The notes beneath the pieces were generated by a model that ran no database searches, was not told where the DNA came from, and saw only the letters and a list, made by a program, of their open reading frames with translations. From the NCBI GenBank assembly GCA_964017235.1, contig OZ024927.1, forward strand, positions 19,921,160 to 19,985,159: DNA of 64,000 nucleotides, read 5' to 3'. Positions 36,465 to 58,227 of this stretch are shown in pieces. This stretch comes from Sabellastarte sp. h YS-2021. Lineage: Eukaryota; Annelida; Polychaeta; Sabellida; Sabellidae. Position numbers and translations under genes: made by a program. Positions within the stretch are counted from its first letter, which is position 1, and each line of letters opens with the position of its first letter.

Positions 36465-36470
36465 GCCAGA
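36465..36470. repeat. Target-site duplication GCCAGA, left
   Basis: GCCAGA directly precedes the first base shared by the two arms (AGTAGTATAG at 36471). The same six bases directly follow the last shared base on the right (58222-58227). A 6-bp duplication is what Polinton/Maverick integration is known to leave. Confidence 0.8.
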
Positions 36471-36530
36471 AGTAGTATAGGGGGCTATTTAGTCACACAA
36501 ATAGTCACACAATCTACGTGGTCCCCCTGG

Positions 36531-36675
36531 GGGGTTGTATAGATTTTTGTGACCAGCAGTCACGGCCCATCCGTGTGAGGAGGGGGATATGGGGGAGTTG
36601 GGGGTTGTATAGATTTTTGTGACCAGCAGTCACGGCCCATCCGTGTGAGGAGGGGGGGGATATGGGGGAGTTGGG
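36531..36675. repeat. 70-bp tandem duplication at left tip
   Basis: The unit 'ggggttgtatagatttttgtg...gtgtgaggaggggg.atatgggggagtt' occurs twice with a 70-bp period, the second having extra G residues. Its position within 60 bp of the terminus resembles subterminal repeats that often bind transposition proteins; that role is only inferred. Confidence 0.85.
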
Positions 36676-36900
36676 GGGTTTACTTAATGCAGGGTGTGTT
36701 AATTATCTGTGAAAATGAGGTTGAAATGAAATACATTTATTGGAAGGAAGTACATAAAATATTCATAGCATCACCAATAAATAAACAACATCTAAAGCTA
36801 CATAAGGGCAAATAAAATCATGTAAACAGCTAAAGGTAAAATAAAAAAAACAGCAAACATCCAAGAACCTTTAAAAACTAGTAAACAAATTTTGTATATT

Positions 36901-37300
36901 TAAGCATCTACATATTTATAGCATCAAATAAGGGACATTTACAGCTATATACAGATCTATCATAACACTAAAGAAATAAAACACAATTAGGACATACAAA
37001 TTTGTAAGGTATAAGGACAAAACATGCAAACAACAAGGATTATTTAAGCATCTACATATTTATAGCATCAAATAAGGGACATTTACAGCTATATACAGAT
37101 CTATCATAACACTAAAGAAATGAAACACAATTAGGACATACAAATTTGTAACAAAACATGCAAACAACAAGGATTATTTAATCATCTACACATTCATAGC
37201 AACAAATAAGGGACATTTAAAACTACAAATTTATCATAAATATGAAACATCCAAAATAGTTAAGACATTTAAACCCGTAAAAATTTGTAAGGACATTTAA
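36901..37300. repeat. 144-bp tandem repeat, left arm
   Basis: The unit beginning 'taagcatctacatatttatagcatcaaataagggacattta' starts at 36901, 37045 and (changed) 37179. The third is shortened and diverged. Non-coding. Confidence 0.85.
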
Positions 37301-37839
37301 AAATGAAATAGTCATGAAAGGTAAAAGGATTATATAGTCCATTAACCGCTGAATGACTCTAGTGTTTGCTACTTTTCATATTTTCAAAATAAAAGCATCA
37401 TAAAAAATCCTGGATTTCCATTGGGGTGACTATAATTCCAGCAACTATAATTCCAGCAATCCGATTGGCGTGACTATAAATCGGAGTCAGGGGTCATTTA
37501 AACATCTACAAATTAAAGCTAACCAAAAAAGTACACACAAGTAATGGTCAAGCTTTTTTCCCACAATTTTTCCCCAGTTAAAGGGACCCAGTTTCAAATT
37601 GTCACAGCAGCCTTTCATTAGACGTTGCATATAATTCAAACCCAATCCCTTTAATTTAAACCAACCCCTGTACATTATTACCTTTATTTTTAAGTAATTA
37701 CCTTATTTTAAAGTTTTCTCCATGACTGCTATTCAATAATACTGGAATAAGTAAGAATCCCTCTAATATACCAAAGTCCCAAAAATTTTAAATATCATAT
37801 ACTAGAGTCCAATGGAAAGGCTATTATTCCCCCCACTGA

Positions 37840-38720
37840 CAAAGCCATTCACACAGGTGGCGTCATTCATCATTAAAAAGGTCTTGTTAAGGAATTATAA
37901 TGTATAATTTTCAAATGCTCATAACTTTTCGAGGAATGGTCCGATTTTAAAAATTCAAAAAGGACCTTGATCCATATCTCCAGACAAAAATTTTGATATC
38001 TAATACTATAACCCCATATGATAAATGCACAATATTTCAAAATCCAGCATGCTAAAAAAGTCCCATTGTAAAAGCCTATAATCCCCCCCCCCCCTTGACC
38101 ATGCCATTCACACAGCTGGCGTCATTAATCATTAAAAATGTCTTGTTAAGGAATTATGATGCATAATTTTCAAATGCTCATAACTTTTTGAGGAATAGTC
38201 CGAATTTAAAAATTCAAAAAGTGTCTTAATCAGTGAGTCAAGACGAACGTGTTGATACCAAACATGCGCCTGTTAAACCAGTAATGAAAAATAGAAAAAA
38301 ATATTCATTAATTACGTCAAGAGACTCCTAAAGGCAATCTTCAAACAGCCTTAACTCAGCAAGGAATAGGCAGATTTTAAAAATTCGAAAAGCGTCTTAA
38401 TCAGTGAGTCCAGACTAATGTTTTGACATCAAACTTAACCATATATGAGCAATAGCGGGAATCAAATTTTAACTATACCAAATGGGCTACATTTTTTTCA
38501 AATGTTGATAACTTTATGAGGGATAGTCCGATTTTAATAATTTAAAAAAAGCTAAATCTACGATTCCAGGCAAAAATTTTGATACCAAATATTCATATAT
38601 TAAAGTTATAGTGAAGGGGTAAAGAAAATATACATTATGGGCTAAAAGTTTTTTTTCAAATGATGATAACTTTATGAGGGATAGTCCGATTTTAAAAATT
38701 CAAAAAGGAGCTTAATCTAC
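37840..38720. repeat. Diverged tandem repeats, left arm
   Basis: The phrase '(c/g)ataactttnngaggnatagtccgattttaaaaattcaaaaag' recurs with variation near 37920, 38179, 38350, 38508 and 38668. Each is followed by 'ccagac.aaaattttgatacc'. The spacing is irregular (about 160-260 bp), so this is an old array. Confidence 0.75.
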
Positions 38721-39010
38721 TATTCCAGACTAAAAATTTAATACCAAACATGCACATATTAAAGTGATAATAAATGAGCAATAAATCTCATAAATAGCTA
38801 CACCATTTAAATCTAAAGCCAAACCAGCAACAGCTAGTAATAAAAAGATTATACGCCCAATTAACTTTCAGGTATCAGGTATCCATGTGCTTAATCTCCG
38901 AAACTCGCGGATTCTAAGGCACGCCATCCAATCATAATGTAAGAATCATATATCATAAGCCATAGCAAGGTCGTCACCAGGGGATCATCGGTGTTCGGTA
39001 GCAATAAAAA

Positions 39011-39222
39011 CTAAGGAGGAAAAGACTTCTGAAACAGGTAGCTTTTGAGTCGCGTTTTGAAGCATGACAGTGTTGGAGCAGTTTGAATTTCCAGTGGCAA
39101 ATCATTCCAGAGTTTTGGAGCATCATATGAAAAAGACTTATTGAAATGAACCTTGGATTTATGAACTTTACTTATGCCAACTTTAATTGTTGAATGAGCA
39201 GTTTTGTGTGACTGCAAAACAA
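39011..39222 (-). pseudogene. LINE C-terminal fragment, left arm
   Basis: The minus-strand frame ends in a block with SYDAPKLWNDLPLEIQ and FKTRLKSYLFQ. This is the usual C-terminus of CR1/L2-type LINE reverse transcriptases (a Pro-x-Leu-Trp-Asn-x-Leu-Pro core followed by FK..LK..LF). The open frame extends upstream to 39313 but that part belongs to another repeat. The rest of the LINE is absent. Confidence 0.8.
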
Positions 39223-40070
39223 ACTGGAAAAAAGCACTCACAGAGCACAGACCTCTGCCACACGTACAAGCAGAAGGACGGAGAGTGGAGCTTATTGGTA
39301 GTGGCACCTCCAAAATTTAATCAGTTGTTACTTACACCTATACCACCATTCCCTGAAAATTTGAATGAAGTCCATGCATTATTTTATGAGTAAAGCGCTA
39401 AAAAGATATTTTTCGAGTTTAAGATAGTCTTAAAATGAACATGGGTGGAGGCATCACCTCCAAAATCTAATCAGTTGTTACTTGGACGTATTGTGATGGT
39501 CCAACGGCTGTCAGGCTACAAATGGGCGATAATAAGGTACTTTTTCAATCTTACCTTCTATTTAACTCTAGAACTTGCGAAAAACAGTATATTAAAGCTT
39601 AAATTCATGGTATTTTATCTTAACCTCATGATATTTGGTGTTTTCTGCAGCATTTAGGTTATTTGTATGAATCAATGAATCATCTGTGATTTGTGATGTT
39701 ATATAAACATCAGCCGGGAGTTAAAGCTTTTCAAAACAAATGGAGTAAGTAAAGTATTTGAATTTATGCATGGAGTTTGTAATATTTCCTTTATATGTGT
39801 GTGCATATGATGTTAAACTATTAATTTAGGCAATGTTGCATAATATTGGACATAATTTATGCGAATGCTGGTTTTAAGTTAAAAGCTATCACCCCCCCAG
39901 TTCATTCTCAGTATCGTCCCACTATTCATGTGACCTCTGGCAAAGTAAATATGAGAGCCACGGATTGCCAGTTTCTTCAGAATTCCGTAGTGAATTCCCC
40001 ATCAACATCAAGGGAGAAGGAGCCGAGAAGACAGAAGCGAAGCAGGAGCTGCCACCAGCAGCCAACTAGC

Positions 40071-40660
40071 AGCCATATATAGTCACCAGTAGCCATCCAT
40101 AGCCACCAGTACCCACCAATATAGCCGCCAATAGCCCCTAGACCCCATCCATCCATCCATGTGGGATGCCAGTAGCCACGTATAGCCGCTAGTAGCCACA
40201 TATATTCAACTATAAGATGCCCAGCCATATATAGTCACCAGTAGCCATCCATAGCCACCAGTACCCACCAATATAGCTGCCAATAGCCCCCTAGACCCCA
40301 TTCATCCATGTGGGATGACAGTAGCCACGTATAGCCGCTAGTAGCCACATATATTCAACTATAAGATGCCCAGCCATATATAGTCACCAGTAGCCATCCA
40401 TAGCCACCAGTACCCACCAATATAGCCGCCAATAGCCCCCTAGACCCCATTCATCCATGTGGGATGACAGTAGCCACGTATAGCCGCTAGTAGCCACATA
40501 TATTCAACTATAAGATGCCCAGCCATATATAGTCACCAGTAGCCATCCATAGCCACCAGTACCCACCAATATAGCCGCCAATAGCCCATTAGACCCTATT
40601 AATCGATGTGGGGCCGTCAGTAGCCATTGATAGCCACCAGTAGCCACCAATAGTAGCTGG
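40071..40660. repeat. 149-152-bp tandem array (TAGCCACCAG subunits), left arm
   Basis: The start word AGCCATATATAGTCACCAG lies at 40071, 40223, 40372 and 40521, giving periods of 152, 149 and 149 bp. Within each unit a shorter motif of about 10 bp (TAGCCACCAG, TAGCCGCCAA and so on) is repeated, so the array is hierarchical. Non-coding. Confidence 0.9.
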
Positions 40661-40757
40661 CAGTACTAATCAATATCCCTTTTCATTGAGCAGTAGAATA
40701 ACAGCTCTTAAAGGCAGATATAGTCCTTAGTAGTAACCAATGGTTGTCAGTAGCCAT

Positions 40758-41610
40758 GTTACGGTTATTAGTTGTTATCTACTTGTCCTAGATGGTATTT
40801 ATAACCTTATCTTGTAGTTGTGCTAATTATCATAATCACAACCTTCTGGTCAATGGTAACTTATAATAATTACCTGATAATTTCAATTCCATGATAATGA
40901 TTTATATATATTATTTAATTGCCTGTTAATAAATGTGAATGGTTCTATATATCCCTTGCTTTTTGATTGCTTGCTTGCCTCCTATTATGTAATTTTCCTT
41001 AGTTAAAATGAATAATAAGAATTGCTGGAGATGAAGATTTGCAATTACATTTTATTACACCCGGGATCCTGCAGTTCCAACAACTGGATATCCTGTGAGG
41101 TATAGTGAGGTTCAGAAGTAAACTTGTTTAATGAGACTTGGAAATCCTAGAGATGTCTGGTGATTCTCTACAGGAATCTGTTTCTGACATTTGGATGTCC
41201 TGTGAGGTGTAATGAGGTTCAGCAGTGAACCTGTTTTATGATACTTAGAAATCCTAGAGATGTCCGGTGATTCTCTACAGGAATCTGTTTCTGACATTTG
41301 AATGTCCTGGAAGGTATTACAAGATTCAGAGTGAATCTGGTTTTAAGATGCTCAGAGATCCTGGAGATGTCTGGTGATTCAGGAGTGAATCTGTTTCTGA
41401 CATTTGGATGTCCTGGAGGTGTCTGATGAAGAATCTATTTCAGTACTTGGACATGTCCTGGAGGTGCTGGTGATTCTGAAAGCTTGATTGAGACTCAGTA
41501 GTGAGTCTGACAATATTTCTGTACAGGTGGGAAATGAAGAATACAATGGCTGGATGGACCGTTCAGTTGAGAGCCAGTGTGAGATATTTATGCCGCTCGA
41601 ATCCATCACA
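40758..41610 (+). mobile_element. Candidate Ty3/gypsy 5' LTR, left arm
   Basis: It lies just upstream of a good tRNA primer site. It may start at TGTTACGG (40758) and end at ATCACA (41610), the usual TG...CA. A TATA-rich stretch and AATAAA lie near 40905-40935. No 3' LTR is present to define the ends, so the left boundary is a guess. The right part contains a 107-bp tandem array. Confidence 0.4.
41086..41480. repeat. 107-bp tandem array, left arm
   Basis: Units beginning 'ggat(a/g)tcctg(t/g)' start at 41086, 41193, 41300 and 41406. Each has 'gaaatcctagagatgtc.ggtgattc' and 'aatctgtttctgacatttg' words; later units are shorter and more diverged. Confidence 0.88.
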
Positions 41611-41613
41611 TTT

Positions 41614-41630
41614 TGGTGTCAGAAGTGGGA
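41614..41630 (+). promoter_or_regulatory. Primer-binding site for tRNA-Leu, left arm
   Basis: TGGTGTCAGAAGTGGGA is the exact complement of a eukaryotic tRNA-Leu 3' end including CCA (TCCCACTTCTGACACCA). It lies 3 bp after the candidate LTR end and upstream of gag, as expected for minus-strand priming by a Ty3/gypsy element. Confidence 0.8.
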
Positions 41631-41937
41631 TTCCATTGTTCGTTAGGAATGCAGTGATGCGGATCCAGCGCTTATTTCTTTAAGCAGAGTTATTTTATAT
41701 TGTAGATATATATAAAGAGTGAAACGGGTGAGAGGAGTGATGTAGCTGACAATGCAGCCGGGGGAGTGTTTTCTCAGTCCACGTGTGGCGGCTCAGGTGA
41801 TGTGGAACCAAAGAGACCAGATGACCAACAACGGATGGAAGCCCTAAAGTGTCTCAGACATCTTTGTCCAGATCGGAGAGAAGAAAGGGGACAAGCATTC
41901 CACCTGGAACAGATGGACAACCCTAGATGGAGAGCTG

Positions 41938-42717
41938 ATGCACCAGCGGGACTGGCCATTGGATTTGAGTCATCTTACTTACTTGGCCCACTTTGAGATA
42001 TGCAGTGAGATCAATGGCTGGAACTTCCAACAGCGCACACATTATCTGAGTGTTAGCTTGAGGGGGAACTGCATCCCAGGTGATGAACAACTTGCCACTT
42101 CACAGACGAAGAGATTATCATGAGCTGGTAACTGCATTAGACAGACGATTCAATTAAGAAAACCAGAGCGAGTTGTACCGTGTCCAACTACGGAATGGGC
42201 TCAGGCAAACAAATGAGAGTTTACCTGAGTTAGTTCAACACATCAGACAATTGGCTAGTCAGGCTTATCCTGGTGCCAATGCTGATGTCTTAGATGTCCT
42301 TGGGAAGGATTATATCATAGATTCAATAGATGATCCTGACATCCGCTGGAACATTTATCAAACAAAGCCAGAGAATTTAGACAGAGCAATATGCACCGCT
42401 GTAGAATTTGAAGCGTACAAATCAGCGGAGAAGCGAAGAACTTCAAGCAAACGTTAGTGAGGGATGTCCAGTACAAACCAAATGCAACAACGCAGAAGTC
42501 ATCACAAGACCATTCTGTAATCGATGAATTGAAGAAACAAGTGGAAGAGCTAAAGAGGAAGCTTCTAGACCAACCAATGAAGAGAGGGATTAGAGGTCAG
42601 ACTTCATACTTACAGTGTGGAAAACAGAGTTCTAATGTTAGGTGTTGGAAATGTGGGGAAATTGGACATATGATGCGTAATTGTCCCCATGAGTCCAAGA
42701 TTGAGATGTCAAACTAG
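41938..42717 (+). pseudogene. Ty3/gypsy gag, broken, left arm
   Basis: Gag would form the particle shell and package the element RNA. In order: a LAHFEICSEINGWNF...YLSVSLRG block (41970-42065) typical of the gag core; a frameshift near 42085; the continuation RRRDYHELVTALDRRFN; an in-frame TAA at 42155-42157; a second core half (42173-42450) with LPELVQHIRQL; then another frame change at 42457. That leads to a tail with a predicted coiled coil (VIDELKKQVEELKRKL) and one CCHC zinc knuckle, CWKCGEIGHMMRNC (C-x2-C-x4-H-x4-C, about 42643-42687). At least three lesions make it inactive. It resembles Mag-type elements; that clade call is inference. Confidence 0.85.
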
Positions 42718-42819
42718 ATCAGGCTGCATCTAGTGGTCGAGGTACAGCCGAACCTTGAAGACCACAAAAGATTTTGAGTCTTAGTGGGAATCGTGGGTAA
42801 GTGCTTATAGGGGAAACCT

Positions 42820-43119
42820 TTGAAATTTTTGATAGATACAGGTGCAGGTGTTACCCTCATTTCTGAGGGTATATTCCAACGGTTGAGTCAAGGTGTGGAG
42901 GGTTCTTTACAGAAAGTGCCATTTGATGTCTGTGGTGGAAGCCAACTAAAGGTTTTGGGCAAGGACCTAACAGAAATCACTATTGGGCCACTGAAAGTTC
43001 TCCATGAAATCATCGAGGCTGATATAGAGGCTGATGCAATCCTAGGGATGGATTTCCTGTCAACACATGAGTGCAAGGTGGACTTAGCTGATCAACATCT
43101 TACTATCCATGGCATTTAA
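42820..43119 (+). pseudogene. Retroviral-type aspartic protease fragment, left arm
   Basis: The pepsin-like retroelement protease matures Gag and Pol. The frame has the catalytic FLIDTGAG (Asp at residue 6 of the frame) and the flap/helix motif ILGMDFL at residues 74-80. It then runs into HLTIHGI and stops at 43119. The natural link to reverse transcriptase is missing: at about 43110 the sequence changes to the antisense ATPase gene, which overlaps the last 36 bases of this frame. A stop near 42807 separates it from gag. Confidence 0.85.
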
Positions 43120-43500
43120 GTCATCCTGTGGCGAGAAGGAAGTCAGCCTCAGTGTTGCCGGATCTACCTCAGCCTGACTCGGTATCCCTTCTAGAAATTC
43201 TATACCCTCCACTTCCCTTTTCATGCTGTCGAAAGTATCTTGGTAGATACCGTAACAATACAATATTTTGTTTACCGGTTCCGAAAACATGACATTCTTG
43301 TTCCTAAGTAAGCGAAACAACCATGTAGTTTTTCCGCTTTTGGTTGCTCCGGATACGCAGCCTGTGGATGCCGCTTCGAAAGGTAAGGGTACAGCTTCCT
43401 TTCCAAAATGATTATTGTGAAACTTCTGAATATGTCTCTTGTAGTTATAGCCTTTAGAAAAGCTTTTATCGCATTCACTACACGTTTTCATGATGGTCAT
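43084..43500 (-). pseudogene. Packaging-type P-loop ATPase with C2H2 finger, 3' truncated, left arm
   Basis: An ORF of 138 codons on the minus strand. Residues 7-28 form a C2H2 finger (C7, C10, H23, H28). Residues 41-75 contain FEAASTGCVSGATKSGKTTW, with Walker A GATKSGKT at 51-58, then a hydrophobic strand KILYCYG and a conserved-looking FLEGIPS. This order (finger, F..., P-loop, strand ending Tyr/Phe, GIP) is that of A32/FtsK-HerA-like genome-packaging ATPases of Polintons and large DNA viruses. The Walker B half is absent: translation runs into the gypsy protease junction after about residue 130. Upstream are TTATAAAAG and a 22-bp minisatellite. Truncation should make it inactive. The family is inferred from motifs; a cellular P-loop protein is less likely. 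Confidence 0.7.
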
Positions 43501-43611
43501 TTTTAAGGATAAAATGTCTTTTGCTTTTATAAAATTCTTAGGATTTTAGGGGCTTAAAGGCTTTAGATTTAGGGGTTTAGGGTACTTAGAGCTTAGGGTT
43601 TTAGGTTAAGG

Positions 43612-43985
43612 TGGCTCCTGAGGGGCTCCTAATTGGCTCCGGATGGCTCCGGATAGCACCTAAATGGCTCCAGATGGCTCCGGATAGCTCCTAAATGGCT
43701 CCTAAGTGCTCCAGAAGGGCTCCGGATAGCTCCTAAATGGCTCCTAAGTGCTCCGGAAGGGCTCCGGATAGCTCCTAAATGTCTCCGGATGGCTCCTAAA
43801 TGGCTCCGGATGGCTCCGGATAGCTCCTAATTGGCTCCGGATAGCTCCTAAATGGCTCCGGAGGGCTCCGAATAGCTCCTAAATGGCTCCGGATGGCTCT
43901 TTAGTGCTCCAGAGGGGCTCATAAGTGCTCTGGATGGTTCCTAAGTTCTCCAGAGGGGCTCAGGATGACTTCCTAAAGAATGTTG
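43612..43985. repeat. 21-22-bp GCTCC minisatellite, left arm
   Basis: About 16 variant units of 'aatggctccggatagctccta' (on the ATPase coding strand: TAGGAGCTATCCGGAGCCATT). The core GGCTCC/GCTCC recurs every 10-11 bp, so each unit is itself a dimer. It stands 110 bp upstream of the ATPase start. Confidence 0.9.
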
Positions 43986-44055
43986 GATAGGTTCGGAATA
44001 TTTTTTACAGTCAGAGCAATGACTAAGGATGTGAGACAAAAATAGCCTACTTCAT

Positions 44056-44394
44056 TTTATTGATAAAATATACATAAAGAATACATTATTAACGATCGAA
44101 AAATACAAACCAAATACTCCTAAAAAAACACAAATTACTGATCTACGTAACTGTACGGAACAGTGTCCTGATTGTTCCTGATTCTCCTTTTGTCATACAG
44201 GACCGAATACGATATCTGTTGCGCCCTGTTGTAACTCTTTGTCTCTTTGAAAAATTTGCAGAATTACCCTGCATGAAATGTGTACAGGCAAGTATAAACA
44301 GGCAGGAAAATTGCTCTGATGCCACACTGTAAAACTCATTAGGGCCATATAAACTCCAACAATACAGAGTAATTATTACAGAATTGAATTGCAA
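44056..44394 (-). other. 3' end of an unknown gene upstream of the ATPase, left arm
   Basis: An 83-codon minus-strand frame (44143-44394), unlike anything I know, with a basic C-terminus (QRVTTGRNRYRIRS). It is followed by an AATAAA signal (TTTATT at 44056-44061 on the plus strand). It reads in the same direction as the ATPase and ends before the minisatellite, as if it were the 3' end of the preceding gene in the captured block. Its 5' part stops at the gypsy boundary near 44405. Confidence 0.35.
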
Positions 44395-44407
44395 CAGGAT
44401 ACAGTAA

Positions 44408-45110
44408 AAAAGTAGTACACCCTTACCATAAGATTCCTTTATAGATGTGGGGAAAACTGGGTGAAAAACTTTATCAACTTCAACAGGAAGGGATTATATC
44501 TAGAATTGAATCATCAACTGACCTAGGCATCCCATTAGTAGTGAACTCAAAGAAGAATGAGGACTTAACAATATGCTTGGATCCTATTGATTTGAACAAA
44601 TATGTTTAAAATGTAACATTTTAAATGACCAAATAAAGAAGAAATTATGGCTTACCACCATGTGGCAAAGATGCTTACTGAACTTGATACAGCTAATGGG
44701 TTCTTCCAGTTAAAGTCAGGCAAAAATTCTCAGAAAGTCACAACCGTTAACACACCAATTTGCATAATATTGTTGTAAGAGGTAACAAAATAAAATTTCA
44801 TCAAAAAGAAAAAACTGCTATTGGAGAAAAAAAACAGGTGGTAACAAGCATGGATGACCTTATCTTGTGGGGCTACAACCAAAATGATATAACCAACAGC
44901 TGAAAACAGTACATCAAATAATTCTAATAGTGGATCTTTTTTTTAATTTAAAGAAATTTCACAATTTTAGGTGGCAGAGGTGATGTATTTAGGTGACTTG
45001 GTCACCCCCTGAAATGGTCACCCATCAAATGCGTCGGCAATAAAAGCACAATAACTCTTGAGTGTAAAAAAGAGTTGCAAAAGTTTTGTATAAAAAGTCA
45101 GCAATTATGT
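44408..45110 (+). pseudogene. Ty3/gypsy reverse transcriptase remnant, left arm
   Basis: Broken plus-strand translation: a start resembling VHPYHKIPL; EKLYQLQQEGIISRIESSTD and PLVVNSKKNEDLTICLDPID (44460-44605); FFQLK near 44705; a MDDLILWG block (44850-44875) at the catalytic Tyr/Met-Asp-Asp position; EVMYLGDLVTP (44975-45010); and a KKELQKF block (45065-45085). Many stops and frameshifts are present. It is the continuation of the same kind of element as the gag/protease at 41938-43119, separated by the ATPase block. No RNase H or integrase follows. Confidence 0.78.
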
Positions 45111-45305
45111 GGCAAGGTGGGTGCCAAGCTAAAAAGAAATAAAATGCACAATAAAAATAAAGACAATACCAATGCACACGAAGTGATAATCAAGATGTTA
45201 ATTGTTTCAACTGAAGATTGGAGAATCAAATTATTGTAGGCTTTGTAAGAAAAATGCTGAATGACGGCTCCTCTTTGATGATTGTCCTCTCTGATAAGAT
45301 TATCA

Positions 45306-46860: not shown

Positions 46861-47034
46861 TTCTTTAAGTCAGCCAGTTTCATAAACAAAATATTTTGGA
46901 AAATACATTTAAAAGTATTTTACATTAGGTATATGAGAATATATGAGACATTCATTGTAGCAAATGCCATGAATGCCAATAATATTTCCATTAGAGCACA
47001 CAGTATTTTTACATCAAGATGATATGTGTACAAT

Positions 47035-47849: not shown

Positions 47850-48417
47850 ATTGTACACATATCATCTTGATGTAAAAATACTGTGTGCTGCTATATTTGT
47901 CATAATTTTAAATATATAAAACGTATATATAATTGTACTTCAGCAATGTACTTAAAGAACAGGTTCTTGAAAATTGATTCCAGTTTGCTTTGACAATTTA
48001 TAGGAATGTTAAAAAAATACTTGCCACCAAATATTATTTTATCCACGAAAACATTTTTAGCAAACAAAATCTGTTCAACTTGGCTTCATTGTGTAGGTTA
48101 TATTCAAGATTTCAGTCAATGTACTCGTTTGGTGACTTATGTGATAAGCTAAACATGCAAACTGGTATGATGTGTTTACCCCCTCCCCTGTGCTCTTTGT
48201 GCTTTTTACCAGATAATAATATTGCCTCAGTTAATTATATACTATTCCTTTCTTCCCCCAAATTCCCCAATGGTTAAATTCTGTCACCTGACATTTTATC
48301 ATGCTTTGTGGCAGAAAAGTTTTTGTATTTCCATATTCTTCAAAACTACAATAGCTACAGATTAACTGTTAATTTTATTTGAAATTTATTACTCCTAAAT
48401 TTGAAAGGTTTTCTTAG

Positions 48418-49445
48418 CACCCCATATTTGGGCTAAATCTTTAATGTTTCAATATATTTTAATCATTTGTATCCTATATGGTTGAAGACTTTTCTGAAAT
48501 TGATGCAATTACTAGGATTGATTCAGGGTAGGAAATATTGCTTCACGAATGTTAAGATAGATTGAGATAGGTTTGTGACTGAATTCCTGAAATCAAGATG
48601 TGGAAAAGATCTGTGACAGTTTACAATATAATTTCTAACAGTTTAAAATAATGGGGAAAGGCACATAATTGGTACAGAACACTACTGAAAGTACAAGACC
48701 CCAAACTGATAATCTTTTTATTATTTTGAAATTATCAGTGTCTCGATAAGAATTCACCTCTTCTGTCCTGGAAAAACTTATTTAATTTAACCATTGCAGA
48801 AAATACATGGAGACACATATTCCAAATTTGTTTTAAAACTGTGAAGGACAATGGCCTGATATGGCTACAGCTTAGAATACTATATAAGATTCTGGGAACA
48901 AATGATCTCCTATTAAAATTAATAAACATGGCAGTGGAAAGTGTAACTTTTGTGAGGAACAACCTGAAACTATGATACATCTGTTTGTGGAATGCAAAAT
49001 TGTCAAACAGTTTTGGTTCGCACTCAAAGCCAGAATTGAATTGGTACTATAGACCAATTTTAATGTCCATCCATCTTGTATAATTCTGGGCTCTCTGGCA
49101 ACAAACAACTTGAGCGCTCCACTTAACACAATTTATTTAACAGCAAAAATGTACATTTTTAAAACTTCACATAAAAATGGAAATTTATTATTAGATGGTT
49201 TTTGTGACTACTTGAAATCAGTATACCAAGAGCAGGAATATGTTGCCAAACTTGATTTCAGACAGGATAAGTTTAACAAAGCATGGGGAAATTTTTATAA
49301 TTTATCTTTTGGCTGAACACAATACTTTCACTATAATGTAACAAAAACATACATGTAAATCCTTGTGTTACTTTGTTTTGTTTTTTTGTGTCCATTGTGT
49401 AATTGTGTTGCTATACATGCAATTATACAAAAATAAAAAATATTA
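48418..49445 (+). pseudogene. LINE 3' part with zinc-binding end (Tx1/L1-like), right arm
   Basis: Mirror of 45306-46340, with about 3% differences. It keeps CNFCEEQPETMIHLFVEC-type residues in one frame (about 48935-49000), closer to the expected Cys pattern than the left copy. It ends in an A-rich tail near 49425-49445. Confidence 0.72.
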
Positions 49446-49589
49446 AAAATCTGATAATCTTATCAGAGAGGACAATCATCAAAGAGGAGCAGTCATTCAG
49501 CATTTTTCTTACAAAGCCTACAACAATTTGATTCTCCAATCTTCAGCTGAAACAATTAACGTCTTGATTATTACTTCGTGTGCATTGGT

Positions 49590-50290
49590 ATTGTTTTTAT
49601 GTTTATTGTGCATTTTATTTATTTTTAGCTTGGCACCCACCTTGCCACATAATTACTGACTTTTTATACAAAACTTTTGCAACTCTTTTTTACACTCAAG
49701 AGTTATTGTGCTTTTATTGCCGACGCATTTGATGGGTGACTGCTTCAGGGGGTGACCAAGTCACCTAAATACATCACCTCTGCCACCTAAAATTGTGAAA
49801 CTTATTTAATTTAAAAAAATCCACTATTAGAATTATTTGATGTACTGTTTTCAACTGTTGGTTATATCATTTTGGTTGTAGCCCCACAAGATAAGGTCAT
49901 CCATGCTTGTTACCACCTGTTTTTTCTACAATAGCAGTTTTTTCTTTTTGATGAAATTTTATTTTGTTACCTCTTACAACAATATTATGCAAATTGGTGT
50001 GTTAACGGTTGTGAGTTTCTGAGAATTTTTGCCTGACTTTAACTGGAAGAACCCATTAGCTGTATCGACTTTGGTAAGCATCTTTGCCACATGGTGGTAA
50101 GCCATAATTTCTTCTTTATTTGGTCATTTAAAATGTTATATTTTAAACATATTTGGGCAAATCAATAGGATCCAAGCATATTGTTAAGTCTAGATTCTAG
50201 ATATAATCCCTTCCTATTGAAGTTGATAAAGTTTTTCATCCAGTTTTCCCCACATCTATAAAGGAATCTTATGGTAAGGGTGTACTACTT
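49590..50290 (-). pseudogene. Ty3/gypsy reverse transcriptase remnant, right arm
   Basis: Mirror of 44408-45110, with a deletion of about 57 bp at 50186-50198. It removes the STDLGIPLVVNSKK-coding part present on the left. The TGA in the LGDLVTP block is replaced by GAA here (near 49747). Confidence 0.75.
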
Positions 50291-50306
50291 TTTTACTGTA
50301 TCCTGT

Positions 50307-50645
50307 TGCAATTCAATTCTGTAATAATTACTCTGTATTATTGGAGTTTATATGGCCCTATAATGAGTTTTACAGTGTGGCATCAGAGCAATTTTCCTGC
50401 CTGTTTATACTTGCCTGTGCACATTTCATGCAGGTAATTCTGCAAATTTTTCAAAGAGACAAAGAGTTACAACAGGGCGCAACAGATATCGTATTCGGTC
50501 CTGTATGACAAAAGGAGAATCAGGAACAATCAGGACACTGTTCCGTACAGTTACGTAGATCAGTAATTTGTGTTTTTTTAGGAGTATTTGGTTTGTATTT
50601 TTCGATCGTTAATAATGTATTCTTTATGTATATTTTATCAATAAA
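50307..50645 (+). other. 3' end of unknown gene, right arm (frame broken)
   Basis: Mirror of 44056-44394. Small indels near 50360 (TATAATGAG versus TAATGAG) break the frame. The basic C-terminal stretch and the AATAAA (50640-50645) are kept. Confidence 0.35.
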
Positions 50646-50706
50646 ATGAAGTAGGCTATTTTTGTCTCACATCCTTAGTCATTGCTCTGACTGTAAAAAA
50701 TATTCC

Positions 50707-51080
50707 GAACCTATCCAACATTCTTTAGGAAGTCATCCTGAGCCCCTCTGGAGAACTTAGGAACCATCCAGAGCACTTATGAGCCCCTCTGGAGCACTAA
50801 AGAGCCATCCGGAGCCATTTAGGAGCTATTCGGAGCCCTCCGGAGCCATTTAGGAGCTATCCGGAGCCAATTAGGAGCTATCCGGAGCCATTTAGGAGCC
50901 ATCCGGAGACATTTAGGAGCTATCCGGAGCCCTTCCGGAGCACTTAGGAGCCATTTAGGAGCTATCCGGAGCCCTTCTGGAGCACTTAGGAGCCATTTAG
51001 GAGCTATCCGGAGCCATCTGGAGCCATTTAGGTGCTATCCGGAGCCATCCGGAGCCAATTAGGAGCCCCTCAGGAGCCAC
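50707..51080. repeat. 21-22-bp GGAGC minisatellite, right arm
   Basis: Mirror of 43612-43985, with nearly the same unit order. Confidence 0.9.
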
Positions 51081-51190
51081 CTTAACCTAAAACCCTAAGC
51101 TCTAAGTACCCTAAACCCCTAAATCTAAAGCCTTTAAGCCCCTAAAATCCTAAGAATTTTATAAAAGCAAAAGACATTTTATCCTTAAAA

Positions 51191-51607
51191 ATGACCATCA
51201 TGAAAACGTGTAGTGAATGCGATAAAAGCTTTTCTAAAGGCTATAACTACAAGAGACATATTCAGAAGTTTCAGAATAATCATTTTGGAAAGGAAGCTGT
51301 ACCCTTACCTTTCGAAGCGGCATCCACAGGCTGCGTATCCGGAGCAACCAAAAGCGGAAAAACTACATGGTTGTTTCGCTTACTTAGGAACAAGAATGTC
51401 ATGTTTTCGGAACTGGTAAACAAAATATTGTATTGTTACGGTATCTACCAAGATACTTTCGACAGCATGAAAAGGGAAGTGGAGGGTATAGAATTTCTAG
51501 AAGGGATACCGAGTCAGGCTGAGGTAGATCCGGCAACACTGAGGCTGACTTCCTTCTCGCCACAGGATGACTTAAATGCCATGGATAGTAAGATGTTGAT
51601 CAGCTAA
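51191..51607 (+). pseudogene. Packaging-type P-loop ATPase with C2H2 finger, 3' truncated, right arm
   Basis: Mirror of 43084-43500 with two amino-acid differences. One changes the fourth finger ligand (His28 to Gln; His31 could replace it). The other changes Pro to Leu after MFSE. Walker A is intact. It has the same abrupt junction with the protease fragment. Confidence 0.7.
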
Positions 51608-51871
51608 GTCCACCTTGCACTCATGTGTTGACAGGAAATCCATCCCTAGGATTGCATCAGCCTCTATATCAGCCTCGATGATTTCATGGAGAACTTTCAG
51701 TGGCCCAATAGTGATTTCTGTTAGGTCCTTGCCCAAAACCTTTAGTTGGCTTCCACCACAGACATCAAATGGCACTTTCTGTAAAGAACCCTCCACACCT
51801 TGACTCAACCGTTGGAATATACCCTCAGAAATGAGGGTAACACCTGCACCTGTATCTATCAAAAATTTCAA
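51572..51871 (-). pseudogene. Retroviral-type aspartic protease fragment, right arm
   Basis: Mirror of 42820-43119 with an identical 99-residue translation, including DTG and ILG. Confidence 0.85.
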
Positions 51872-51973
51872 AGGTTTCCCCTATAAGCACTTACCCACGA
51901 TTCCCACTAAGACTCAAAATCTTTTGTGGTCTTCAAGGTTCGGCTGTACCTCGACCACTAGATGCAGCCTGAT

Positions 51974-52753
51974 CTAGTTTGACATCTCAATCTTGGACTC
52001 ATGGGGACAATTACGCATCATATGTCCAATTTCCCCACATTTCCAACACCTAACATTAGAACTCTGTTTTCCACACTGTAAGTATGAAGTCTGACCTCTA
52101 ATCCCTCTCTTCATTGGTTGGTCTAGAAGCTTCCTCTTTAGCTCTTCCACTTGTTTCTTCAATTCATCGATTACAGAATGGTCTTGTGATGACTTCTGCG
52201 TTGTTGCATTTGGTTTGTACTGGACATCCCTCACTAACGTTTGCTTGAAGTTCTTCGCTTCTCCGCTGATTTGTACGCTTCAAATTCTACAGCGGTGCAT
52301 ATTGCTCTGTCTAAATTCTCTGGCTTTGTTTGATAAATGTTCCAGCGGATGTCAGGATCATCTATTGAATCTATGATATAATCCTTCCCAAGGACATCTA
52401 AGACATCAGCATTGGCACCAGGATAAGCCTGACTAGCCAATTGTCTGATGTGTTGAACTAACTCAGGTAAACTCTCATTTGTTTGCCTGAGCCCATTCCG
52501 TAGTTGGACACGGTACAACTCGCTCTGGTTTTCTTAATTGAATCGTCTGTCTAATGCAGTTACCAGCTCATGATAATCTCTTCGTCTGTGAAGTGGCAAG
52601 TTGTTCATCACCTGGGATGCAGTTCCCCCTCAAGCTAACACTCAGATAATGTGTGCGCTGTTGGAAGTTCCAGCCATTGATCTCACTGCATATCTCAAAG
52701 TGGGCCAAGTAAGTAAGATGACTCAAATCCAATGGCCAGTCCCGCTGGTGCAT
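51974..52753 (-). pseudogene. Ty3/gypsy gag, broken, right arm
   Basis: Mirror of 41938-42717. All three open segments have the same translations and the same lesions, so the damage is older than the arm duplication or has been homogenised. Confidence 0.85.
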
Positions 52754-53060
52754 CAGCTCTCCATCTAGGGTTGTCCATCTGTTCCAGGTGGAATGCTTGT
52801 CCCCTTTCTTCTCTCCGATCTGGACAAAGATGTCTGAGACACTTTAGGGCTTCCATCCGTTGTTGGTCATCTGGTCTCTTTGGTTCCACATCACCTGAGC
52901 CGCCACACGTGGACTGAGAAAACACTCCCCCGGCTGCATTGTCAGCTACATCACTCCTCTCACCCGTTTCACTCTTTATATATATCTACAATATAAAATA
53001 ACTCTGCTTAAAGAAATAAGCGCTGGATCCGCATCACTGCATTCCTAACGAACAATGGAA

Positions 53061-53077
53061 TCCCACTTCTGACACCA
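53061..53077 (-). promoter_or_regulatory. Primer-binding site for tRNA-Leu, right arm
   Basis: The plus strand reads TCCCACTTCTGACACCA, the mirror of 41614-41630, with no change. Confidence 0.8.
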
Positions 53078-53081
53078 AAAT

Positions 53082-53935
53082 GCGATGGATTCGAGCGGCA
53101 TAAATATCTCACACTGGCTCTCAACTGAACGGTCCATCCAGCCATTGTATTCTTCATTTCCCACCTGTACAGAAATATTGTCAGACTCACTACTGAGTCT
53201 CAATCAAGCTTTCAGAATCACCAGCACCTCCAGGACATGTCCAAGTACTGAAATAGATTCTTCATCAGACACCTCCAGGACATCCAAATGTCAGAAACAG
53301 ATTCACTCCTGAATCACCAGACATCTCCAGGATCTCTGAGCATCTTAAAACCAGATTCACTGCTGAATCTTGTAATACCTTCCAGGACATTCAAATGTCA
53401 GAAACAGATTCCTGTAGAGAATCACCGGACATCTCTAGGATTTCTAAGTATCATAAAACAGGTTCACTGCTGAACCTCATTACACCTCACAGGACATCCA
53501 AATGTCAGAAACAGATTCCTGTAGAGAATCACCAGACATCTCTAGGATTTCCAAGTCTCATTAAACAAGTTTACTTCTGAACCTCACTATACCTCACAGG
53601 ATATCCAGTTGTTGGAACTGCAGGATCCCGGGTGTAATAAAATGTGATTGCAAATCTTCATCTCCAGCAATTCTTATTATTCATTTTAACTAAGGAAAAT
53701 TACATAATAGGAGGCAAGCAAGCAATCAAAAAGCAAGGGATATATAGAACCATTCACATTTATTAACAGGCAATTAAATAATATATATAAATCATTATCA
53801 TGGAATTGAAATTATCAGGTAATTATTATAAGTTACCATTGACCAGAAGGTTGTGATTATGATAATTAGCACAACTACAAGATAAGGTTATAAATACCAT
53901 CTAGGACAAGTAGATAACAACTAATAACCGTAACA
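53082..53935 (-). mobile_element. Candidate Ty3/gypsy 5' LTR, right arm
   Basis: Mirror of 40758-41610. The 3' end differs by one base (GCGATGG versus GTGATGG opposite 41604-41610). Confidence 0.4.
53212..53606. repeat. 107-bp tandem array, right arm
   Basis: Mirror of 41086-41480. Confidence 0.88.
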
Positions 53936-54031
53936 TGGCTACTGACAACCATTGGTTACTACTAAGGACTATATCTGCCTTTAAGAGCTGTTATTCTACT
54001 GCTCAATGAAAAGGGATATTGATTAGTACTG

Positions 54032-54621
54032 CCAGCTACTATTGGTGGCTACTGGTGGCTATCAATGGCTACTGACGGCCCCACATCGATTAATAGGGTC
54101 TAATGGGCTATTGGCGGCTATATTGGTGGGTACTGGTGGCTATGGATGGCTACTGGTGACTATATATGGCTGGGCATCTTATAGTTGAATATATGTGGCT
54201 ACTAGCGGCTATACGTGGCTACTGTCATCCCACATGGATGAATGGGGTCTAGGGGGCTATTGGCGGCTATATTGGTGGGTACTGGTGGCTATGGATGGCT
54301 ACTGGTGACTATATATGGCTGGGCATCTTATAGTTGAATATATGTGGCTACTAGCGGCTATACGTGGCTACTGTCATCCCACATGGATGAATGGGGTCTA
54401 GGGGGCTATTGGCAGCTATATTGGTGGGTACTGGTGGCTATGGATGGCTACTGGTGACTATATATGGCTGGGCATCTTATAGTTGAATATATGTGGCTAC
54501 TAGCGGCTATACGTGGCTACTGGCATCCCACATGGATGGATGGATGGGGTCTAGGGGGCTATTGGCGGCTATATTGGTGGGTACTGGTGGCTATGGATGG
54601 CTACTGGTGACTATATATGGC
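54032..54621. repeat. 149-152-bp tandem array, right arm
   Basis: Mirror of 40071-40660 with the same copy number. The CATCCATCCATCCA variant in the outermost unit is also kept. Confidence 0.9.
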
Positions 54622-55470
54622 TGCTAGTTGGCTGCTGGTGGCAGCTCCTGCTTCGCTTCTGTCTTCTCGGCTCCTTCTCCCTTGATGTTGATGGGGAATT
54701 CACTACGGAATTCTGAAGAAACTGGCAATCCGTGGCTCTCATATTTACTTTGCCAGAGGTCACATGAATAGTGGGACGATACTGAGAATGAACTGGGGGG
54801 GTGATAGCTTTTAACTTAAAACCAGCATTCGCATAAATTATGTCCAATATTATGCAACATTGCCTAAATTAATAGTTTAACATCATATGCACACACATAT
54901 AAAGGAAATATTACAAACTCCATGCATAAATTCAAATACTTTACTTACTCCATTTGTTTTGAAAAGCTTTAACTCCCGGCTGATGTTTATATAACATCAC
55001 AAATCACAGATGATTCATTGATTCATACAAATAACCTAAATGCTGCAGAAAACACCAAATATCATGAGGTTAAGATAAAATACCATGAATTTAAGCTTTA
55101 ATACACTGTTTTTCGCAAGTTCTAGAGTTAAATAGAAGGTAAGATTGAAAAAGTACCTTATTATCGCCCATTTGTAGCCTGACAGCCGTTGGACCATCAC
55201 AATACGTCCAAGTAACAACTGATTAGATTTTGGAGGTGATGCCTCCACCCATGTTCATATTAAGACTATCTTAAACTCGAAAAATATCTTTTTAGCGCTT
55301 TACTCATAAAATAATGCATGGACTTCATTCAAATTTTCAGGGAATGGTGGTATAGGTGTAAGTAACAACTGATTAAATTTTGGAGGTGCCACTACCAATA
55401 AGCTCCACTCTCCGTCCTTCTGCTTGTACGTGTGGCAGAGGTCTGTGCTCTGTGAGTGCTTTTTTCCAGT

Positions 55471-55682
55471 TTGTTTTGCAGTCACACAAAACTGCTCATT
55501 CAACAATTAAAGTTGGCATAAGTAAAGTTCATAAATCCAAGGTTCATTTCAATAAGTCTTTTTCATATGATGCTCCAAAACTCTGGAATGATTTGCCACT
55601 GGAAATTCAAACTGCTCCAACACTGTCATGCTTCAAAACGCGACTCAAAAGCTACCTGTTTCAGAAGTCTTTTCCTCCTTAG
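55471..55682 (+). pseudogene. LINE C-terminal fragment, right arm
   Basis: Mirror of 39011-39222 with an identical translation. Confidence 0.8.
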
Positions 55683-55971
55683 TTTTTATTGCTACCGAAC
55701 ACCGATGATCCCCTGGTGACGACCTTGCTATGGCTTATGATATATGATTCTTACATTATGATTGGATGGCGTGCCTTAGAATCCGCGAGTTTCGGAGATT
55801 AAGCACATGGATACCTGATACCTGAAAGTTAATTGGGCGTATAATCTTTTTATTACTAGCTGTTGCTGGTTTGGCTTTAGATTTAAATGGTGTAGCTATT
55901 TATGAGATTTATTGCTCATTTATTATCACTTTAATATGTGCATGTTTGGTATTAAATTTTTAGTCTGGAAT

Positions 55972-56852
55972 AGTAGATTAAGCTCCTTTTTGAATTTTTA
56001 AAATCGGACTATCCCTCATAAAGTTATCATCATTTGAAAAAAAACTTTTAGCCCATAATGTATATTTTCTTTACCCCTTCACTATAACTTTAATATATGA
56101 ATATTTGGTATCAAAATTTTTGCCTGGAATCGTAGATTTAGCTTTTTTTAAATTATTAAAATCGGACTATCCCTCATAAAGTTATCAACATTTGAAAAAA
56201 ATGTAGCCCATTTGGTATAGTTAAAATTTGATTCCCGCTATTGCTCATATATGGTTAAGTTTGATGTCAAAACATTAGTCTGGACTCACTGATTAAGACG
56301 CTTTTCGAATTTTTAAAATCTGCCTATTCCTTGCTGAGTTAAGGCTGTTTGAAGATTGCCTTTAGGAGTCTCTTGACGTAATTAATGAATATTTTTTTCT
56401 ATTTTTCATTACTGGTTTAACAGGCGCATGTTTGGTATCAACACGTTCGTCTTGACTCACTGATTAAGACACTTTTTGAATTTTTAAATTCGGACTATTC
56501 CTCAAAAAGTTATGAGCATTTGAAAATTATGCATCATAATTCCTTAACAAGACATTTTTAATGATTAATGACGCCAGCTGTGTGAATGGCATGGTCAAGG
56601 GGGGGGGGGGATTATAGGCTTTTACAATGGGACTTTTTTAGCATGCTGGATTTTGAAATATTGTGCATTTATCATATGGGGTTATAGTATTAGATATCAA
56701 AATTTTTGTCTGGAGATATGGATCAAGGTCCTTTTTGAATTTTTAAAATCGGACCATTCCTCGAAAAGTTATGAGCATTTGAAAATTATACATTATAATT
56801 CCTTAACAAGACCTTTTTAATGATGAATGACGCCACCTGTGTGAATGGCTTT
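55972..56852. repeat. Diverged tandem repeats, right arm
   Basis: Mirror copy of 37840-38720. Confidence 0.75.
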
Positions 56853-57391
56853 GTCAGTGGGGGGAATAATAGCCTTTCCATTGGACTCTAGTATATGATA
56901 TTTAAAATTTTTGGGACTTTGGTATATTAGAGGGATTCTTACTTATTCCAGTATTATTGAATAGCAGTCATGGAGAAAACTTTAAAATAAGGTAATTACT
57001 TAAAAATAAAGGTAATAATGTACAGGGGTTGGTTTAAATTAAAGGGATTGGGTTTGAATTATATGCAACGTCTAATGAAAGGCTGCTGTGACAATTTGAA
57101 ACTGGGTCCCTTTAACTGGGGAAAAATTGTGGGAAAAAAGCTTGACCATTACTTGTGTGTACTTTTTTGGTTAGCTTTAATTTGTAGATGTTTAAATGAC
57201 CCCTGACGCCGATTTATAGTCACGCCAATCGGATTGCTGGAATTATAGTTGCTGGAATTATAGTCACCCCAATGGAAATCCAGGATTTTTTATGATGCTT
57301 TTATTTTGAAAATATGAAAAGTAGCAAACACTAGAGTCATTCAGCGGTTAATGGACTATATAATCCTTTTACCTTTCATGACTATTTCATT

Positions 57392-57791
57392 TTTAAATGT
57401 CCTTACAAATTTTTACGGGTTTAAATGTCTTAACTATTTTGGATGTTTCATATTTATGATAAATTTGTAGTTTTAAATGTCCCTTATTTGTTGCTATGAA
57501 TGTGTAGATGATTAAATAATCCTTGTTGTTTGCATGTTTTGTTACAAATTTGTATGTCCTAATTGTGTTTCATTTCTTTAGTGTTATGATAGATCTGTAT
57601 ATAGCTGTAAATGTCCCTTATTTGATGCTATAAATATGTAGATGCTTAAATAATCCTTGTTGTTTGCATGTTTTGTCCTTATACCTTACAAATTTGTATG
57701 TCCTAATTGTGTTTTATTTCTTTAGTGTTATGATAGATCTGTATATAGCTGTAAATGTCCCTTATTTGATGCTATAAATATGTAGATGCTT
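57392..57791. repeat. 144-bp tandem repeat, right arm
   Basis: Mirror copy of the array at 36901-37300. Confidence 0.85.
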
Positions 57792-58016
57792 AAATATACA
57801 AAATTTGTTTACTAGTTTTTAAAGGTTCTTGGATGTTTGCTGTTTTTTTATTTTACCTTTAGCTGTTTACATGATTTTATTTGCCCTTATGTAGCTTTAG
57901 ATGTTGTTTATTTATTGGTGATGCTATGAATATTTTATGTACTTCCTTCCAATAAATGTATTTCATTTCAACCTCATTTTCACAGATAATTAACACACCC
58001 TGCATTAAGTAAACCC

Positions 58017-58161
58017 CCCAACTCCCCCATATCCCCCCCCTCCTCACACGGATGGGCCGTGACTGCTGGTCACAAAAATCTATACAACCCCCAACTCCCC
58101 CATATCCCCCTCCTCACACGGATGGGCCGTGACTGCTGGTCACAAAAATCTATACAACCCC
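58017..58161. repeat. 70-bp tandem duplication at right tip
   Basis: Mirror of 36531-36675, with the same two units, including the longer C run in the inner one. Confidence 0.85.
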
Positions 58162-58221
58162 CCAGGGGGACCACGTAGATTGTGTGACTATTTGTGTGAC
58201 TAAATAGCCCCCTATACTACT

Positions 58222-58227
58222 GCCAGA
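58222..58227. repeat. Target-site duplication GCCAGA, right
   Basis: Direct repeat of 36465-36470, immediately after the final CTATACTACT of the element. Confidence 0.8.

Follow-up and report, generated by a model that had tools for sequence, protein, structure and literature searches.

A palindromic 21.75-kb Maverick-type element with the same end at both termini in the genome of the annelid Sabellastarte sp. h YS-2021

Introduction

MITE-like (miniature inverted-repeat transposable element) non-autonomous transposons keep only their ends and move by means of a relative's enzyme, and foldback elements are marked by inverted repeats of great length. For the Mavericks, or Polintons, an adenovirus-like, protein-primed replication of linear DNA has been inferred mainly from their PolB gene, and in the adenoviruses themselves symmetric duplications of the left end occur. 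Here we describe a palindromic mobile element of 21.75 kb that spans positions 36471–58221 of a 64-kb stretch of DNA from Sabellastarte sp. h YS-2021, which stretch—hereafter the window—corresponds to C1:19921160–19985159 in a 1.786-Gb assembly of 647 contigs. Vertebrate Mavericks, according to the portion available of a survey of these elements (PMC8097293), have the end motifs (AG)3//(CT)3 or (AGT)2//(ACT)2 together with a 6-bp duplication and measure 12.7–24.6 kb, the inverted repeats of 134 intact copies being 46–1,447 bp long. The incomplete particles of adenoviruses contain left-end DNA, as stated in the available parts of two further sources (PMC5033970, PMC12090768). No description of palindromic Mavericks was found in the titles and abstract openings of the open-licence papers searched.

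The window element resembles the vertebrate Mavericks of that survey (PMC8097293) in its (AGT)2//(ACT)2 tips, its 6-bp duplication and a total length within 12.7–24.6 kb, and its relatives in the same genome likewise carry genes for PolB, an integrase, an A32-like ATPase and a capsid protein; unlike the vertebrate elements there described, it has inverted repeats of about 10.4 kb, no complete Maverick gene and the same end twice. Since in this genome the tip is followed by either of two sequences, here called X and Y, we refer to ordinary elements as X-Y and to the form with a doubled end as X-X. In being self-complementary and keeping one end of the parent genome, the X-X form is like the snapback genomes of adeno-associated virus; unlike that virus—single-stranded, with hairpin ends and with molecules seen in virus particles, in the accessible text of PMC8235507—it is integrated and constitutes an inherited repeat family. 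With the defective genomes of adenoviruses the common features are a protein-primed linear DNA, inverted terminal repeats and the favouring of one end, whereas the Maverick satellites are known here from integrated copies and not from virions or free molecules. Arms more than 99% identical and kept alike by gene conversion recall the palindromes of sex chromosomes (PMC8981503, in part), but those are palindromes of host genes, whereas X-X elements are mobile and have target-site duplications. From MITE-like and foldback elements, finally, the present ones differ in their Maverick tips and in the captured foreign sequence that makes up much of their arms.

Results

The Palindrome and Its Edges

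Direct reading and blastn of the window against itself delimited the following parts:

36465–36470: target-site duplication, left copy, GCCAGA, 6 bp (direct reading)
36471–47034, + strand: left arm, 10,564 bp (self-blastn and a 40-bp inverted match)
46861–46994: 134 bp in the left arm that are absent from the right arm, there between 47889 and 47892 (arm comparison)
47035–47849: spacer, 815 bp (bounded by the 40-bp inverted match)
47850–58221, − strand: right arm, 10,372 bp, an inverted copy of the left arm (self-blastn and the 40-bp inverted match)
58222–58227: target-site duplication, right copy, GCCAGA, 6 bp (direct reading)

The left tip, AGTAGTATAG, starts at 36471 with AGTAGT and the right tip, CTATACTACT, ends at 58221 with ACTACT. 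The arms pair between 36471–46860 and 58221–47892 at 98.5% identity over 10,404 columns, and an additional perfect inverted match of 40 bp (46995–47034 with 47850–47889) sets the inner limits of the arms at 47034 and 47850, which leaves a spacer of 815 bp. Because three other palindromes keep the 134-bp segment in both arms, the right arm of the present element has lost it. An inverted repeat of such length and identity cannot be due to chance. An earlier note on this DNA, made from its letters alone, had described a near-perfect palindrome of 21.75 kb within a 6-bp duplication, with GCCAGA exactly on both outer sides and arms of about 10.4–10.6 kb; all of this is confirmed, and only the spacer, there given as 816 bp, turned out to be 815 bp long.

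Ordinary Elements of the Same Genome

A genome search with the 250-bp tip (42 matches, the best 40 of 349 candidates being scored) returned 30 loci, in which the tip was followed by X at 11, both window ends included, and by Y at 19. Ordinary elements have one X end and one Y end each, are mostly ~20–23 kb long and have 6-bp duplications, the terminal repeat common to the two kinds of end being 246 bp; in the window element, by contrast with this X-Y arrangement, the X junction was read at both ends. Its 246-bp tip is 98.4% identical to the Y end of the copy at C4:151.63 Mb, and agrees with the X end of that copy at 95% over 642 bp. Seven X-Y elements were read at both ends, their duplications being ACAGAG (C4:151.63), TATAGT (C3:20.11), TTAGTG (C19:0.44), AATATC (C8:12.42), AGTAGG (C4:54.65), GGTATA (C1:149.74) and AAAAGC (C5:151.86). 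In all, 14 elements (7 X-Y and 7 X-X) could be compared at their two edges, and 12 of these have identical 6-mers at their tips, the exceptions being the palindrome at C1:111.71 Mb, which needs an offset of five bases at the left tip, and that at C11:89.49 Mb, whose right edge is damaged; tip copies devoid of 6-bp duplications, which the earlier note had said would tell against it, thus come down to one offset and one damaged edge. End motif and duplication agree with those published for vertebrates (PMC8097293, in the part available), and the tip of the window element, one of the two motifs of that survey, upholds the Polinton end that the note had recognised beside the 6-bp duplication.

The copy at C4:151.63 Mb has in its Y half a zf-C2H2/A32-like ATPase of 254 amino acids (aa; Pox_A32 E 1.2e-4, 22.1 bits against a cut-off of 22.8) and a capsid candidate of 417 aa; the same half also contains an rve integrase of 365 aa (4.7e-13), with a Tudor-knot domain above the cut-off and a chromodomain just below it. 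Many relatives of the 417-aa protein exist, the few named ones—F54H12.2-like, in bivalves and amphioxus—being mainly from bivalves or from records named after symbionts, which we take to be bivalve symbionts, plus one from amphioxus. Its predicted fold (mean pLDDT 88.3) matches the double-jelly-roll capsids of PBCV-1 (E 4e-15), SGIV (8e-15) and mavirus (3e-13), with TM scores of about 0.55–0.65. A TATA-binding-protein-like gene (PF00352, 6e-20; L032:7219–7713, + strand) and a BIR (inhibitor of apoptosis) gene (PF00653, 3e-20; L032:9234–9713, − strand) were also observed in the Y half of this copy.

PolB was not seen in 20,000 of the 20,963 bases of that copy; the resulting idea that the resident X-Y copies lack PolB was rejected, as PolB frames of 1,115–1,123 aa without stops are present in other X-Y copies, among them those at C1:54.77, C4:161.46 and C3:186.92 Mb. 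We take these X-Y elements to be bona fide Mavericks. Inward of the 40 unpaired X ends, the matches listed comprise PolB in 9 cases, the segment at 44095–45310 of the arm in 16, both in 0 and neither in 15. The X-Y elements are accordingly of two kinds, the second of which looks like a PolB-less lineage.

A Family of Palindromes

The arm probe (best 40 of 90 candidates scored) found two inverted arm copies in five elements—the window element and those at C1:111.71, C11:89.49, C3:174.62 and C7:106.01 Mb—and single copies in the other 30 rows of that search. The four further palindromes measure 21–22 kb each. Perfect duplications flank those at C3:174.62 Mb (AGTGCT on both sides) and C7:106.00 Mb (TATAGT); at C1:111.71 Mb the duplication AGAAGG is obtained only if five extra bases of the left tip, AGTAT, are counted as element, and at C11:89.49 Mb TAAAGC is on the left, the right tip and the edge of the duplication being damaged. 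At C1:111709134–111709148, AGTAT separates the usual AGTAGTATAG from what looks like the 6-bp duplication, an arrangement that resembles slippage of the tip in copying. X junctions occur at both ends of the elements at C1:111.71, C3:174.62 and C7:106.00 Mb, as in the window, and at the left end of that at C11:89.49 Mb, whose right end matches the X arm.

With the spacer as probe (best 40 of 3,401 candidates scored), full-length matches were obtained at C1:111.72 Mb (4 differences in 815) and C11:89.50 Mb (11 differences), along with partial ones at C3:174.63 Mb (90% over the first 477 bp) and C7:22.77 Mb (80%, at a place not palindromic within the 3.8 kb examined). The window element and those at C1:111.71 and C11:89.49 Mb thus have the full spacer and the arm/spacer junction in common, amid different flanks, and since spacer and junction recur at two loci with other flanks, the palindromic form itself has been copied and inserted. 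Of the self-inverted descendant proposed in the earlier note, then, the palindromic and non-autonomous nature stands; the inversion did not take place here, the element belonging to a mobile family with other flanks. Two shorter X-X elements were also examined: one of 7,627 bp at C5:9.77 Mb (duplication ATTATG, arms 94.9% identical over 2.6 kb) and one of 7,203 bp at C14:65.77 Mb (AATTCT, arms 88.6%), which have ATPase-like frames in the middle (two at C5:9.77 Mb and one of 546 aa at C14:65.77 Mb) that match Pox_A32 and, weakly, Adeno_IVa2, and are unlike the 254-aa ATPase found at C4:151.63 Mb. This resident family of palindromic, one-ended Maverick satellites is the larger finding, beyond what the earlier note had described.

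The X junction occurs 264 times in the genome (up to 3 mismatches), and the pairing of ends used 100 of those matches, all with one mismatch and reaching contig C6. These 100 junctions gave 76 X ends (~1.3 junctions per listed end), of which 36 form 18 inward X..X pairs of 3–21 kb, 28 have a Y end opposite them at no more than 30 kb—a distance of just 7–9.5 kb in four cases—and 12 were not assigned to a pair. As one of the latter is the X-X element at C5:9.77 Mb, and as the palindrome at C1:111.71 Mb (two mismatches) falls outside the 100 listed junctions, X-X elements are undercounted. X and Y junctions only 6.9–9.5 kb apart, to judge from their coordinates those of shortened X-Y elements, were noticed at C3:59.27, 84.26, 126.00 and 179.55 Mb. 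For the Y junction the list is complete at 72 occurrences and contains two inward Y..Y pairs, upon which finding the statement that there are no Y-Y elements, drawn from the first Y ends, all of them paired with X, was rejected. X..X and Y..Y pairs other than the named elements were judged from coordinates only. In one Y..Y pair, C4:60934745–60956425 (21.7 kb), PolB matches lie on opposite strands and equidistant from the centre, so that the pair at C4:60.93–60.96 Mb is probably a Y-Y palindrome, and such palindromes seem to form too; the second pair is at C6:104913849–104931940 (coordinates only).

Homogenised Arms and a Foreign Tract

The two arms of the window element differ unevenly along their length, at 7 of 7,785 sites in 36471–44266, 63 of 1,584 in 44267–45911 and 1 of 949 in 45912–46860 (Fisher p 2.9e-41 and 2.7e-12), which distribution rejects a uniform ageing of both arms. 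Hypermutation of one arm within 44267–45911 was rejected as well, the left arm having there the bases of a different palindrome subfamily:

44267–45911, + strand: tract of the other subfamily in the left arm (agreement with the palindrome at C3:174.6 Mb at 58 of the 63 sites where the arms differ)

The palindrome at C7:106 Mb agrees at 55 of those 63 sites. Within the 356 tract columns compared with C1:111 and C11:89, the right arm shows 1–2 differences and the left arm 16–17. On these agreements, the left arm is seen to carry a tract of ~1.6 kb from the other subfamily, which it would have acquired later.

For the inner arm, 874 columns (45912–46860) were compared among elements, out of a full set of 1,230 columns that includes the 356 of the tract. 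The differences between the arms of one element, and those from the nearest arm of another, were as follows:

Window: 1 within, 6 to the nearest other
C1:111: 2 within, 6 to the nearest other
C11:89: 1 within, 8 to the nearest other
C3:174: 9 within, 41 to the nearest other
C7:106: 4 within, 283 to the nearest other (a value partly due to different inner sequence)

The arms are therefore homogenised within elements and mostly closer within than between them, which likeness might come about through arm-to-arm gene conversion or through hairpin intermediates of replication. Because the window element and those at C1:111 and C11:89 share spacer and junction, and their spacers differ at 4–11 of 815 positions, their palindrome would most simply be older than their separation, in which case the arms would have been made alike afterwards.

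Turn Points

At C7:106 Mb the arms, 99.8% alike over 3,848 bp, surround a different loop of 1,223 bp, which contains singly a sequence that is double in the window element, and the palindrome at C3:174 Mb retains the window's left junction without 47517–47853. From these arrangements we infer at least two separate events of turning or re-copying. The left boundary between arm and spacer, 47034/47035, coincides with the exact end of a repeat resembling a long interspersed nuclear element (LINE) at the four other loci aligned, which repeat occurs at many loci and carries LINE-like protein remains. A LINE inserted into the centre of the dyad was considered and not kept, since the copy at C7:22.77 Mb is homologous across the border between spacer and right arm.

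Contents of the Arms and Surroundings

Further features of the arms, on the left-arm coordinates unless otherwise stated, are:

36471–36716, + strand: 246-bp terminal repeat of both kinds of end, starting with (AGT)2 and containing a 70-bp tandem repeat ×2.1 (tip comparison)
57976–58221, − strand: 246-bp terminal repeat of the right tip, ending with (ACT)2 on the + strand (tip comparison)
36471–38264, + strand: X end as in ordinary X-Y Mavericks, the main pieces 83–96% identical to C4:151.63 Mb (sequence comparison)
39014–39316, − strand: open frame resembling the C-terminal tail of a LINE reverse transcriptase, mirrored at 55380–55682 (by eye; no Pfam match)
40070–40647: 149-bp minisatellite ×3.9, mirrored at 54045–54623 (repeat scan)
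41085–41420 and 43612–43944: further minisatellites (repeat scan)
42158–43119, + strand: retroelement fragment with zinc knuckle (PF00098) and gag-type aspartyl protease (PF13975), Pfam above cut-off
43163–43545, − strand: N-terminal part of a Maverick zf-C2H2 and A32-like ATPase, mirrored at ~51146–51528 (zf-C2H2 below cut-off, ahead of the P-loop)
44095–45310: segment present in single copy in many X-Y Mavericks, including a reverse-transcriptase-like stretch (arm probe and comparison)
44629–44775: weak RVT_1 match (Pfam below cut-off)
45676–46023, − strand: LINE fragment, zf-RVT (PF13966), Pfam above cut-off

The left arm and spacer hold 77 stop-to-stop frames of at least 45 aa, and in the 29 of these scanned with Pfam no complete Maverick gene and no match to DNA_pol_B or to the rve integrase was found, the further arm frames giving nothing above the cut-off. 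A genome search with PF03175 (best 76 of 1,309 candidates) yielded no place inside the window element among the 116 matches listed, and blastn found no counterpart in the arm to the integrase and capsid regions of the C4:151.63 Mb copy. The packaging ATPase of the earlier note is thus present in its N-terminal part and incomplete as a gene: the frame with the P-loop represents the front part of the protein, whose relatives match Pox_A32 near or above the cut-off, and it ends at the junction with the gag/protease fragment, to which it is fused. Searches of viral contigs with the ATPase, its alignment and the tip returned no relatives, and the ATPase alignment had no matches in the genome contigs searched. 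Within the arm, 44480–45310 matches X-Y Mavericks at 89–97% and is oriented as on the Y side. A reading of 44445–44775 as a Gypsy retroelement insertion private to the arm was rejected, 44480–45310 being single-copy in many X-Y Mavericks; on that comparison, the segment is assigned to the PolB-less Maverick lineage, with the reverse-transcriptase-like stretch remaining inside it.

Outside the element, the window contains a dispersed short repeat resembling a short interspersed nuclear element (1963–2183, 4509–4726, 8354–8563, 32648–32826, 34369–34588 and 61071–61294; 74–95% between copies) and a tandem array at 20773–21775 with a unit near 145–150 bp (~82% between copies), both from self-blastn. 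A frame for a leucine-rich-repeat protein of 473 aa lies at 62015–63436 (− strand), its best named relative belonging to Paralvinella palmiformis, an annelid (50%). Neither the Rfam scan nor the tRNA scan gave a match in the 64-kb window.

Discussion

The window element is very probably a gene-less satellite of the resident Maverick/Polinton family, mobilised in trans by Maverick proteins and already palindromic before its dispersal. As expected of a non-autonomous derivative, it shares the terminal repeat with gene-bearing copies and occurs as multiple insertions with their own duplications; of the attributes of an autonomous Maverick, it displays the tip motif and the 6-bp duplication, whereas PolB, integrase, capsid and the complete ATPase were missing from what was searched. 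The PolB and integrase of X-Y copies would copy and integrate the X-X elements by recognising the shared tip, and we infer this mobilisation from what is known of the family together with the shared tip and the duplications. The earlier note's non-autonomous descendant moved by Polinton machinery is therefore supported by the shared tip, the published motif and the related palindromes elsewhere.

As to how the X-X form arose, we give about an even chance to a fold-back error (snap-back or template switch) in the replication of the linear element, by analogy with linear viruses. A strand begun at one tip would fold back on itself and re-copy its own half, which event would leave an identical tip at both ends, as in the defective-interfering genomes of linear viruses; the window element is self-complementary and bears the same parental end at either terminus. 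There was probably more than one such turn.

Several observations weigh against this reading of the element as a whole. No transposition was observed, the evidence for mobilisation in trans being the tip in common and the duplications, and the two palindromes with the full spacer are precisely those with the 5-base offset (C1:111.71) and the incomplete duplication (C11:89.49). No unduplicated form that could be the progenitor was found; apart from the ATPase-centre segment and the X end, hardly any arm sequence is present in the 20,000 bases compared of the C4:151.63 Mb copy, and the progenitor would therefore itself have been a rearranged element. Over the full 1,230 columns, tract included, the right arm of the window element shows 7 differences from C1:111 but 16 from its own left arm, and its two arms are not united in the tree. 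Two Y..Y pairs among 72 Y ends indicate that end doubling is not limited to X. Further, a simple snap-back does not predict a left arm that ends exactly at a repeat boundary, 47035. Finally, fold-back and gap repair from one terminal inverted repeat to the other both yield palindromes, and our tests did not separate them.

Such a repair, inside an integrated or excised element, is a possible alternative to which we would assign somewhat less weight: a break in one half would be mended from the other half via the shared terminal repeat and sealed to the middle, the product being later mobilised. The 246-bp repeat is present on both X and Y ends, which would allow priming of one end on the other; the arms do exchange sequence; and the second turn, at C7:106, resembles the re-copying of one arm to a new end point. 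For the window element itself, however, formation in place is very unlikely, as spacer and junction recur at loci with other flanks.

Tentatively, and with fold-back as its starting point, one may go further and regard these elements as an endogenous, inherited defective-interfering system, in which snap-back errors of protein-primed replication would repeatedly yield one-ended palindromes, those doubled at X and bearing cis-signals would multiply, and hairpin replication would re-equalise the arms. Such a system would include satellites of satellites: PolB-bearing X-Y elements, PolB-less X-Y elements, 7-kb X-X elements and 21-kb X-X elements. An addition to the main reading rather than a rival of it, and a rather doubtful one, is that a signal for packaging or replication in the X end would account for the excess of X-X over Y-Y elements, in analogy with the left end of adenovirus, near which the packaging domain lies (PMC5033970, in the part available). 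In keeping with it are the 264 X against 72 Y junctions and the at least 18 X..X pairs, from the listed ends up to contig C6, against two Y..Y pairs genome-wide; the X-X copies, however, are kin by descent and their counts not independent events, and most pairs come from coordinates only. The excess of X-X may thus fit a cis-signal near the X end or, alternatively, descent from few founders.

That the palindromes arose separately, each where it now lies, and that the form itself is immobile appears very unlikely: arms do group mostly by element and not by side, the turn point at C7:106 differs and the spacer at C3:174 is shorter, but the window element and those at C1:111.71 and C11:89.49 share an 815-column spacer (4–11 differences) and its junction, within different flanks. 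An artefact of assembly, whether a missed hairpin adapter or a head-to-head join of two haplotypes, we hardly credit, for although near-identical arms are a classic artefact, the flanks are unique and different, the 6-bp duplication lies exactly at the tips, where an adapter artefact would not stop, several palindromes carry different duplications, and part of the left arm comes from another subfamily.

Palindromes in which one end is doubled, the turn points vary and the arms are equalised are the by-products to be expected from protein-primed linear replication, and they would therefore give a genomic record of how Mavericks replicate, testable in sequence data alone. They suggest, in addition, that Mavericks carry satellites of their own, and they show that inheritance and spread within an animal genome are possible for a near-perfect palindrome of 21 kb.

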